In this document: one piece after another, positions 4,163 through 24,956 of the stretch | Layout: each line of letters opens with the position of its first letter | How positions within the stretch are numbered: position 1 is the first letter of the stretch | From: an uncultured Gammaproteobacteria bacterium | GTDB taxonomy: Bacteria; Pseudomonadota; Gammaproteobacteria; Pseudomonadales; Porticoccaceae | NCBI GenBank assembly: GCA_913060555.1 | Contig: CAJXRS010000015.1 | Span: 1 to 38,644, forward strand | Direction of reading: 5' to 3' | DNA: 38,644 bases | Program-made: the position numbers and the translations under genes | The notes under the pieces: generated by a model | What the model was told of the DNA's origin: nothing | What the model saw: the letters and a program-made list of their open reading frames with translations, nothing else | The model's database searches: none

Positions 4163-5190
4163 GCCGGCCGCTCCCAGCCGACCCGGAACTCGACGTCGTC
4201 GCTGCGCTCCGACACCGCCATGCCCTCCAGCACCCGGGGGATCGACTGCCCCTCGAACAGCACCGCATGCAAGGCGCTCACCAGCGGCATGTAGACACCC
4301 AGCTCGTCCGCCTTGCGCTTGACCATCCGGGTGGTATTGATGCCCTCGGCGACCTGGCCGATCTCGGCGCGGGCCGCTTCCAGCGAACGGCCGGCGGCGA
4401 GTGCGCGGCCGATGCGGAAGTTGCGGCTCAGGGTCGAGGTACAGGTGACGAACAGATCGCCGACCCCGCTCAGGCCCAGGAAGGTCATGGGGTTGGCGCC
4501 CAGGGTGGCGGCGAAGCGGGTCATCTCCGCCAAGCTGCGGGTGAGCAGCACCGCCATGGTGTTCTGCCCCAGGCCCAACTGGGTGGCCATGCCGGCTTCG
4601 ATGGCATAGATGTTCTTCAGCGCGCCGGCGAGCTCGACACCGAACACGTCCGGATTGGCGTAGACCCGGAAATAAGGCGTCGCCAGCAGCCGCTGCACGA
4701 GCTCGCAGACCTCGGCGTCGGCGCTGGCGATGACGGTCGCGGTGATGTCGTGGCGCGCCACTTCGCGAGCGAGGTTGGGGCCGCTGATCACCCCGATGCG
4801 GGCCTCGGGGAGATGCCGGACAAGCAGCTCGCTCATGCGGGTGAAACCCTCGGGGGCGAAGCCCTTGGCGGTGCTGATGACCACGGTGCCCGCGCCAATG
4901 CCCGGCGCGGCGCGCTGCGCCACCGCCTCGAAGGCACCGCTGGGCACGGAAAAGAATACCAGCTCGGCATCCGCCAGCACGGCGTCCAGGTCGGCGCTGA
5001 TCGCCAGCCGGGGATCCAGCTCATAGTCGGGCAGATAGCGCTGGTTGCGCCGCATTGCCCGGCACTCGGCGGCCTGCTCCGGGTCGCGCATCCACAGGCT
5101 GGTGGGATGGCCGTTGCCGGCGATCATGTTGGCGATGGCGGTGCCGAAACTGCCACCACCGAGCACGGCGATGCGGGGAACTGCAACCAT
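4159..5190 (-). CDS. gpsA: Glycerol-3-phosphate dehydrogenase [NAD(P)+]
   Basis: GpsA reduces dihydroxyacetone phosphate to sn-glycerol 3-phosphate, the backbone for phospholipids, in the cytoplasm. The 343-residue protein has the Rossmann motif GGGSFG (11-16), the TAKGF segment with Lys109, the ISGPN block, the catalytic Lys192 in GALKNIYA, and the RNFRIG and AEGINTT segments of the C-terminal domain. Length is standard. ATG 5190 gives the normal N-terminus (MVAVPRIAVLGGGSFG). It heads a run with sixA (4-bp overlap) and the downstream hydrolase. Confidence 0.95.
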   Translation of the reverse strand: MVAVPRIAVLGGGSFGTAIANMIAGNGHPTSLWMRDPEQAAECRAMRRNQRYLPDYELDPRLAISADLDAVLADAELVFFSVPSGAFEAVAQRAAPGIGAGTVVISTAKGFAPEGFTRMSELLVRHLPEARIGVISGPNLAREVARHDITATVIASADAEVCELVQRLLATPYFRVYANPDVFGVELAGALKNIYAIEAGMATQLGLGQNTMAVLLTRSLAEMTRFAATLGANPMTFLGLSGVGDLFVTCTSTLSRNFRIGRALAAGRSLEAARAEIGQVAEGINTTRMVKRKADELGVYMPLVSALHAVLFEGQSIPRVLEGMAVSERSDDVEFRVGWERPA

Positions 5191-11576: not shown

Positions 11577-12035
11577 GTGAGCGAGCTGGACCAAGACCAA
11601 GTTACAGCCCTACTCGACCGGATTCTGGAAATGGAACTGGCAGGCGTGGTCCGCTATACACACTACGCATTCATGATTTTCGGCTACAACCGCATCCCGA
11701 TCGTGTCCTGGATGCAGGAACAGGCGGATGAATCCCTGACCCATGCCCGCGAGGCGGGCGAGATGATCACCCATTTCGGCGGCCATCCCTCGCTGGCCAT
11801 CGGGCCGCTGCTCGAAACCCACAAGCATGATATCGGCGCCATCCTGCGCGAATCCCTGGAACATGAGCGTCAGTCCCTGGAACTGTACCGGCAGCTATTG
11901 AGCCTCGCCGAGGGCAAATCCGTGCTGGTGGAAGAATACGCGCGCCGCATGATCGCCGAAGAAGAACTGCATCAGGGCGAAGTCGACAAGATGCTCCGCG
12001 CCCCCGGCGACATAGAGCCCTTCAGCAACCCCTGA
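11577..12035 (+). CDS. Bacterioferritin-like (ferritin-fold) protein
   Basis: This 152-residue four-helix protein resembles bacterioferritin. Glu20 in the first helix (EMELAGVVRYTHY), an ExxxH segment in helix 2 (ESLTH), Glu residues in ESLEHERQ and EELH near the C-terminus look like di-iron ligands. The helix-2 spacing is one residue longer than the usual ExxH, so the site may differ. No methionine is at the usual haem position that I can place with confidence. Start GTG 11577 has CGAGGAG (11565-11571) at good spacing; ATGs at 11505 and 11547 are possible but lack such a site. Likely role: iron storage or oxidation. It is the last gene of the acyl-CoA run. Confidence 0.78.
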   Translation: MSELDQDQVTALLDRILEMELAGVVRYTHYAFMIFGYNRIPIVSWMQEQADESLTHAREAGEMITHFGGHPSLAIGPLLETHKHDIGAILRESLEHERQSLELYRQLLSLAEGKSVLVEEYARRMIAEEELHQGEVDKMLRAPGDIEPFSNP

Positions 12036-22379: not shown

Positions 22380-24956
22380 TTGTCGCAACCTGCCGACGCC
22401 GCGCCCGCCGCCCATACGCCCATGATGCAGCAGTACCTGCGGCTCAAGGCCGAGCACCCGGATCTGCTGCTGTTCTACCGGATGGGCGATTTCTACGAAC
22501 TCTTCTACGACGACGCGCGCCGCGCCGCGGAACTGCTCGACGTCACCCTGACCAGCCGCGGACAGTCCGCCGGCCAACCGATTCCCATGGCCGGCGTCCC
22601 CTATCACGCCGCCGAAGGCTATCTGGCGCGGCTGATCCGGCTCGGTGAGTCCGTCGCCATCTGCGAGCAGGTCGGCGATCCGGCGACCAGCAAGGGCCCG
22701 GTCGAGCGGCGCGTGGTGCGCATCGTCACCCCGGGCACGGTCAGCGACGAGGCCCTGCTCGACCAGCGCCGCGACAATCTGCTGGTCGCGGTCAATGGCT
22801 CTGGCGACTGCTATGGCATCGCGGCCCTGGATATCGGCAGCGGCCGCTTCACCGTCACCGAGGTGACCGGCGCGGAGGCACTGGCCGCCGAGCTGGAACG
22901 GCTGGATCCCGCGGAACTGCTGCTGCCGGAAGGGCTGGCGGTGATGCCGGCCGTCGCCGAGCGCCCGGGCAGCCGCCGCCGACCGCCCTGGGAATTCGAT
23001 CTGGACAGCGCCCGACGCCGGCTGTGCGAACAGTTCCGCACCCGGGATCTGGCCGGATTCGGCTGCGAACATCTGGAGCTGGCATTGACCGCCGCCGGCT
23101 GCCTGCTGGGCTATGCGCGGGATACCCAGCGCACCGCCCTGCCCCATTTGCGCGGCCTGGCCCACGAGCGCGGTGACGATTGCGTCCAGCTCGACGCCGC
23201 CACCCGCCGCGCAGGTTGGTGTCGATTTCCAGGTTGCGGCGGGCGCGAAAATACGCTGCTCGCGGTACTGGACAATACCGCCACCGCCATGGGCGGGCGG
23301 CTGCTGCAGCGCTGGCTGAACCGTCCGCTGCGCGACCTCGACACCATCACCGCGCGCCAGCAGGCGGTCGCCGAGCTGGGTGAACGCCAGACAGCGTTGG
23401 ATCTGCGGCCGGAGCTGACCCGGGTCGGCGACCTCGAGCGCGTCCTCGGCCGCGTGGCGCTGCGCTCCGCCCGACCCCGGGATCTCGCCCGGCTGCGCGA
23501 TGCGCTCGCCGCGCTGCCGGCGGTCACCGCGACCCTGACCGACCACTTAGCACCCAGCCTGGGGGCGCTGGGCGCCCGTATCAGCAGTTTTCCCGAGCTG
23601 GCGGCACGGCTCGCCGGGGCGCTGGTCGAAAACCCGCCGATGGTGCTGCGCGACGGCGGTGTCATCGCCACCGGCCACGATGCCGAGCTGGACGAGCTGC
23701 GCGCCCTGGCCACCAACGCCGGCGACTACCTGACCGCGCTGGAGACCCGCGAGCGGGAGCGCACCGGCATCGCTTCGCTGAAGGTGGGCTACAACCGGGT
23801 GCACGGCTACTATATCGAGCTGTCGCGCACCGCGGCGGCACAGGCGCCCCTGGACTACCAGCGGCGCCAGACACTCAAGAACGCCGAGCGCTACATCACC
23901 CCAGAACTCAAGACCTTTGAAGACCGCGCGCTCAGCGCCCAGAGCCGCGCCCTGGCGCGCGAAAAACAACTCTATGAGGTCCTGCTGGACACCCTGGGCG
24001 AACAGCTCGCCGAGCTGCAGGAAAGCGCCGCTGCGGTCGCCGAGCTGGACGTGCTAGTCAATCTCGCCGAGCGGGCCGCGGCCCTGGACCTGCGGCTCCC
24101 GGAAATGACCGACCATCCGGAGCTGGAGATTCGCGGCGGCCGCCACCCGGTAGTCGAACGAAGCCTCGAAGAACCCTTCATCGCCAACGACCTGGAGCTG
24201 CGCGACGGCCGCCGCATGCTGATCGTTACCGGCCCCAACATGGGCGGTAAATCCACCTACATGCGCCAGACCGCGCTGATCACCCTGCTCGCCCACGTCG
24301 GCGCCGCGGTACCGGCCGAGCGCGCCCGCATCGGGCTCATCGACCGCATCTTCACCCGCATCGGTTCCGCCGACGATCTCGCCGGCGGCCGCTCCACCTT
24401 CATGGTCGAGATGACCGAAACCGCCAATATCCTGCACAACGCCAGCGATCGCAGCCTGGTGCTGCTCGACGAGATCGGCCGCGGCACCAGCACTTTCGAC
24501 GGTCTCGCCCTGGCCTGGGCCTGCGCCCTTCACCTGGCCCGCGAGGTGCGCGCCTTCACCCTGTTCGCGACCCATTATTTCGAGCTCACCAGCCTGCCGG
24601 AAGAGGTCGAGGACGTCGCCAATGTGCATCTCGACGCCACTGAATACCAGGATGCCATCGTCTTCATGCACAGTGTTCGCGAAGGCCCGGCGAACCGCAG
24701 CTATGGCCTCCAGGTGGCGCGTCTGGCGGGAGTCCCGGAGCCGGTGATCGCGCGTGCACAGCGGGAGTTACAGCGCCTCGAACAGGACGCCGGAACGCGC
24801 CGGCCCGCTGCGGCGCCCCCGGCCCAGGCGGACCTGTTCACAGCTGCCGACCCGGTCCGCGAACTGCTGGCCGCCACCGACCCGGACGCGCTCAGCCCGC
24901 GGGCCGCCCTGGAGCTGGTCTACCGGTTGCACGATCTCATCGAAACCTCGGATTGA
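22380..24956 (+). CDS. mutS: DNA mismatch repair protein MutS (with an internal 25-bp inverted segment)
   Basis: MutS recognises mismatches and starts repair with MutL. The 858-residue protein has the Phe-x-Glu mismatch motif (Phe38-Tyr-Glu40), Walker [10 protein letters not shown] (618-626), the DEIGRGTST Walker B region and a C-terminal helix-turn-helix. The start appears to be TTG 22380, since similarity to E. coli MutS ([14 protein letters not shown]) begins before the first ATG at 22422. Residues 278-286 read AGWCRFPGC, where the family has a segment like NLEI..NL. Reverse-complementing 23211-23235 restores NLEIDTNLR in frame. The residues lie at the start of the core/lever domain, so function may be impaired. 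It is followed by fdxA. Confidence 0.95.
23203..23243. repeat. 8-bp inverted repeats flanking an inverted 25-bp segment in mutS
   Basis: CCCGCCGC (23203-23210) and its exact reverse complement GCGGCGGG (23236-23243) flank 25 bp (23211-23235). In the present orientation those bases encode residues unlike any MutS. In the opposite orientation they encode the family's expected residues in the same frame, with both arms unchanged. The arms end at a mismatch on the outer side (A at 23202, C at 23244). Inside, CAGGTT occurs twice as a direct repeat. Confidence 0.9.

Follow-up and report, generated by a model that had tools for sequence, protein, structure and literature searches.

The mutS locus and its inverted repeat

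The stretch of DNA analysed here (38,644 nucleotides, hereafter the window) corresponds to contig C15, one of the 199 contigs that make up a genome of 2.95 Mb (G000) with a completeness of 97.96% and a contamination of 2.72%. It carries a mutS gene (Table 1) whose predicted product belongs, by profile, to the MutS1 mismatch-repair family and is nearly full length: the TIGR01070 mutS1 profile matched it with 1185.3 bits (cut-off 641.7) over profile positions 1–839 of 840. Of the frames on the 3' side of the gene, one was assigned to a 4Fe-4S ferredoxin and one to a protein-isoaspartate methyltransferase; the frame between these two matched NlpD and ActS, both under the curated cut-offs. A search of the whole genome returned the window mutS as the only MutS match; a second copy of the gene was thereby ruled out, and the assembly holds no unflipped copy elsewhere. 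A broken mutL was likewise ruled out, since the genome has a single open mutL (583.6 bits together with a neighbouring piece), besides one more match under the cut-off.

Table 1. Coordinates of mutS and of the repeat elements within it (window numbering).
Feature	Position	Strand	Remarks
mutS	22380..24956	+	Putative start TTG at 22380, stop ends at 24956; open frame; TIGR01070 match
Left repeat arm CCCGCCGC	23203..23210	+	In Thr-Arg-Arg codons; same in G001
Flipped 25-bp spacer	23211..23235	+	Encodes AGWCRFPGC (residues 278–286) where the family has NLEIDTNLR
Right repeat arm GCGGCGGG	23236..23243	+	Final two bases of codon 286, then Gly-Gly; same in G001

Within mutS, two arms made up of G and C only form a perfect 8-bp inverted repeat around a spacer of 25 bp. 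Such a repeat is by itself unremarkable in this GC-rich window, which contains 85 inverted repeats of 8 bp with spacers of 10–60 bp; inside mutS there are 8 entries with spacers of 8–60 bp, some of them overlapping. It is the spacer that sets this repeat apart, as residues 278–286 change from the assembled reading to the family-like one, in the same frame, once the 25 bp are reverse-complemented. An earlier sequence-only reading had pointed out the perfect arms and the two translations, and both were confirmed when rechecked on the sequence. Folded alone, the 41-nt element gave –10.3 kcal/mol on one strand (z-score –2.43) and –10.0 kcal/mol on the other (z-score –2.64), and in a context of 67 nt the repeat region folded no better than its shuffled versions (z 0.37).

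The spacer orientation in related mutS genes

We compared the locus with 109 other mutS loci aligned by tblastn (110 in all). Three pairs of these (L008/L031, L013/L032 and L029/L056) apparently represent one genome each that was fetched twice, so that the 109 correspond to about 106 distinct loci. All 109 have N-L-E at positions 278–280, followed by Leu (56 loci), Ile (51) or Val (2), while the window gene lacks this motif; AGWCRFPGC as a natural reading was found in 0 of the 109.

The most informative relative is G001, which represents another species of the same genus and whose mutS was matched from residue 81 onward with approximately 80% identity. Its gene has identical 8-bp arms, and these enclose an uninverted spacer encoding NLELDTNLR. 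Aligned as it stands, the window spacer agrees with this one at 1 of 25 bases; once flipped, it agrees at 22 of 25. These two loci are also the only ones among the 110 in which all 8 arm positions are paired. Since G001 has the same arms around an uninverted spacer, the arms are older than the flip, and the orientation of the window mutS is, as judged from the sequence comparison, the derived one. Of the three differences that separate the restored spacer from that of G001, two are synonymous and one exchanges Ile and Leu, and hence there is no visible decay since the flip. With the loop excluded and G002, also of the same genus, as outgroup, 42 MutS changes were specific to the window and 32 to G001 over 763 sites, a difference that is not significant (chi-square approximately 1.35, calculated by hand). 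Both the undecayed spacer and the lack of a clear acceleration of MutS would be compatible with a MutS that was functional and under constraint until recently, without dating the event.

Some observations on the other loci should be mentioned. The mutS match at L081:3001-5550 contains an in-frame stop; it comes from a MAG titled Pedobacter with a gammaproteobacterial-looking MutS, and the stop may be an assembly error because coverage is about 6x. For L017, L018, L024 and L028, the mutS match includes one TAA or TAG each, a possible lesion. A mutS match was missing from five genomes out of 58 (G003, G006, G010, G027 and G032, one of them from the same genus), which may reflect missing sequence, as some of the genomes are incomplete.

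The inversion is tied to the repeat

To judge how unusual the restored reading is, segments of 10–60 bp in mutS were flipped and the new protein was scored against a profile of the 109 other MutS sequences. Among the 126,429 segments scanned, the highest gain on flipping (50.2) was obtained for segments nested on the repeat, and no segment outside 23195–23250 gained more than 5.6. Across all 110 mutS genes, each of 9,842 loops with 6-bp arms was inverted in turn, and the window locus was the sole one to pass a gain threshold of 8. By these sequence scores the inversion of the mutS spacer is not a product of chance. The gain of 50.2 on the repeat, together with the family orientation of all 109 other loci, gives strong support to the earlier proposal of an inversion at the repeats, for which recombination or template switching had been suggested.

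Consequences for the MutS protein

The replaced residues correspond to residues ~276–284 (NLEITQNLA) of E. coli MutS, at the start of domain III, the numbering being derived from an alignment to 7ou2 minus a six-residue offset relative to 6i5f. The mutS gene is changed at conserved residues, as looked for in natural mutators. The Pfam MutS_III match of the window protein lacks the first 15 profile positions and begins at position 16, compared with position 1 in the uninverted control L031. In the AlphaFold2 model of the window MutS (31 sequences in the alignment, 30 of 80 relatives' loci used), the mean pLDDT was 69 for residues 271–280 and 53 for residues 281–290, whereas in L031 the equivalent region, spanned by the blocks 271–280, 281–290 and 291–300, reached 88, 86 and 88. 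The low local values may partly reflect a mismatch with the alignment, and we regard them as supporting evidence only. Taken from sequence and model, an in-frame MutS with nine replaced residues would probably be impaired in mismatch repair. The sequence-only reading had likewise suggested a probable MutS defect. The interpretation given there is, as a whole, partly supported; as for the probable defect, the replacement of residues invariant in 109 loci, the lost MutS_III start and the low predicted confidence all point towards it.

Search for further inversions in the genome

We next consider whether the mutS flip stands alone. The sample of the window genome comprised 40 stretches of 20 kb plus the window (838.6 kb), and that of G001 comprised 80 stretches (743 kb, of which 17,083 positions are N). 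The loop scan tolerates gaps, uses alignments of at least 200 bp and recovers the known mutS event; loops with very different aligned lengths were counted but left unscored, and the aligned lengths given here may be redundant. Within 171.9 kb aligned to G001, mutS included, 8-bp arms with spacers of 8–100 bp form 785 loops in the window genome (254 of them with spacers of at most 35 bp), and mutS alone was flipped. The same was true for 29,754 loops with 5-bp arms compared with G001, for 956 loops with 8-bp arms when the repeats were sought on the G001 side, and for 329 loops with 8-bp arms in 76.7 kb aligned to G002. As no second inversion occurred in the sampled alignments, a genome-wide habit of the assembly is unlikely, and so is a systematic assembly fault behind the mutS flip.

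One further candidate was encountered, a weak 10-bp match near window position 4875 against L199 (5- and 6-bp arms, repeats on the G001 side, score 4), which was dismissed as chance; no match like it was found when repeats were sought on the G002 side.

Traces of mutator activity

Frameshifts were counted with the open frames of G002 as queries, which gave 1 in 110.9 kb of the window genome versus 0 in 64.0 kb of G001, a comparison of low power, and with the frames of G001 and the window genome as mutual queries, which gave 8 in 128.0 kb versus 6 in 124.0 kb. For this comparison 60 of the 80 G001 stretches were used. The mutual counts are inflated by antisense shadow frames, as seen from in-frame stops at 150 and 134 places; the G002 queries gave 9 such places in the window genome and 5 in G001, and theirs are therefore the cleaner numbers. 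The sole frameshift called in the window genome with G002 frames lies in L153 near position 11700 (contig C12).

Thus, in these weak tests the sampled part of the window genome showed neither an excess of frameshifts nor a clear change in rate that would speak for a long mutator history. Silent sites are probably near saturation relative to G001, because DNA identity is only about 75%. A recent loss of MutS would in any case leave little trace in the genome.

Origin of the flipped spacer

The reading that we consider probable is that the polymerase switched templates once, in the recent past, and thereby inverted the spacer; MutS would stay in frame with a changed start of domain III and is probably defective. 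During replication, the polymerase would leave its template within one 8-bp arm, and the nascent end would anneal to the corresponding arm of the other strand. From there, the 25 bp of the spacer would be copied off that strand until synthesis returned at the second arm, which would leave the spacer inverted and the arms unaltered. Two features expected of such an event were found: the arms are perfect (8/8) in the derived state of the window as well as in the ancestral-like state of G001, and the spacer matches the ancestral-like one only as its reverse complement, with the match ending at the repeat. With arms of only 8 bp, recombination through RecA is unlikely. We infer template switching over other inversion routes, the loss of function and the presence of the flip in living cells.

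Alternatively, fold-back chimeras formed while the library was prepared or amplified, or a local error of assembly, may have flipped the spacer in the contig while the cells carry a normal mutS. The genome is a draft with some contamination, the GC-rich hairpin would be a plausible place for fold-back, and the frameshift tests, weak as they are, gave no sign of a mutator. Such an artefact would, however, have to be confined to mutS in view of the loop scans against G001 with both 8-bp and 5-bp arms, and to have left an assembly in which the unflipped copy is missing. Moreover, at the word lengths usual in assemblers, a repeat of only 8 bp would cause no confusion, so reads crossing the junctions should exist; the flipped junctions need words that are missing from the unflipped gene at that place, and hence reads that carry them. 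Fold-back chimeras could supply these words but should be a minority compared with normal reads. The possibility of an assembly or read artefact raised by the sequence-only reading is therefore weakened, and a single local artefact now seems unlikely, although it keeps an appreciable share of the probability.

We regard as improbable a reversible switch that works without a recombinase, in which replication errors at the 8-bp repeat would flip the 25 bp and turn mutS off and on, with MutS-on and MutS-off cells coexisting. The arms are perfect in either state, so the same event could run backwards; the spacer has not visibly decayed relative to G001, and the available part of a study on yeast describes a 2-bp spacer change in SPO75 together with its reversal on the tree (PMC8604942). 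On the other hand, the assembly holds one orientation only, the arms fall below the 10–40 nt given for the repeats of enzyme-driven invertons (PMC11892184, as far as its accessible part goes), and full pairing of the arms in just 2 of 110 loci argues against conservation of the repeat as a device. The mutator switch envisaged earlier thus found no positive evidence, the second orientation being absent from the assembly. Finally, a flipped MutS that tolerates the nine-residue replacement and remains functional is highly improbable, since the preserved open frame, the TIGR01070 score of the remainder and the silence of the weak frameshift and rate comparisons have to be set against the invariant N-L-E of the other loci, the late start of the MutS_III match and the local drop in predicted confidence relative to L031.

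If the flip assigned above to template switching is real in cells, one replication error can disable mismatch repair with the frame kept. Such a lesion would evade screens for frameshifts and stop codons, and its exact reversion would be possible in principle. The standard TIGR01070 profile still scores the flipped mutS far above the cut-off. Scans of conserved repair genes for inverted-repeat loops whose flipping improves the fit to the family could reveal similar alleles elsewhere and could make revertible mutators testable on existing reads. Should a switch be true after all, a population would always contain a few mutator cells, and repair would be regained by the same one-step event.

Comparison with known systems

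No inversion of a repeat spacer within mutS was described in the literature searched (titles and abstract openings among the matches listed, with few subscription papers covered). Chanin et al. (2024, Nature) reportedly deal with intragenic invertons, by the title DNA inversion within genes. These and the mutS flip have in common an inversion inside a gene, but enzyme-driven invertons have the longer repeats noted above, according to the part of PMC11892184 available.

A natural mutator with a lesion in another mismatch-repair gene is Shewanella putrefaciens ATCC-8071, in which, by the accessible portion of the report, the mutL phenotype was measured and complemented (PMC8350357). In both cases a natural strain appears to have suffered a recent lesion in a mismatch-repair gene; the mutS phenotype, unlike that of mutL, is deduced, and its putative cause is a small inversion. 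The E. coli quasipalindrome reporters, which serve to detect template switches at short inverted repeats, resemble the mutS repeat in being short, hairpin-prone and prone to a template switch in replication. They differ in that they score an intramolecular frameshift correction beside the palindrome, and no spacer inversion (PMC7202029).

The closest case is that of Saccharomyces cerevisiae, for which the available part of PMC8604942 describes ten events in coding genes in which intermolecular template switching inverted the spacer of a perfect inverted repeat; the accessible parts of PMC10710837 and PMC2483231 gave no nearer case. In yeast as here, the arms are perfect, the flipped spacer lies in a coding gene and amino acids are replaced as a block. 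The yeast events, as far as that source goes, have arms of more than 9 bp and spacer changes of 2–5 bp that affect up to two residues, whereas the present one would have 8-bp arms, a 25-bp spacer and nine replaced residues, in a bacterium and in a repair gene. By analogy, 8-bp arms around 25 bp would be a less favourable geometry than that of the yeast cases (PMC8604942). Against these cases, the mutS spacer is unusually long, and it lies in a gene where a flip would matter.
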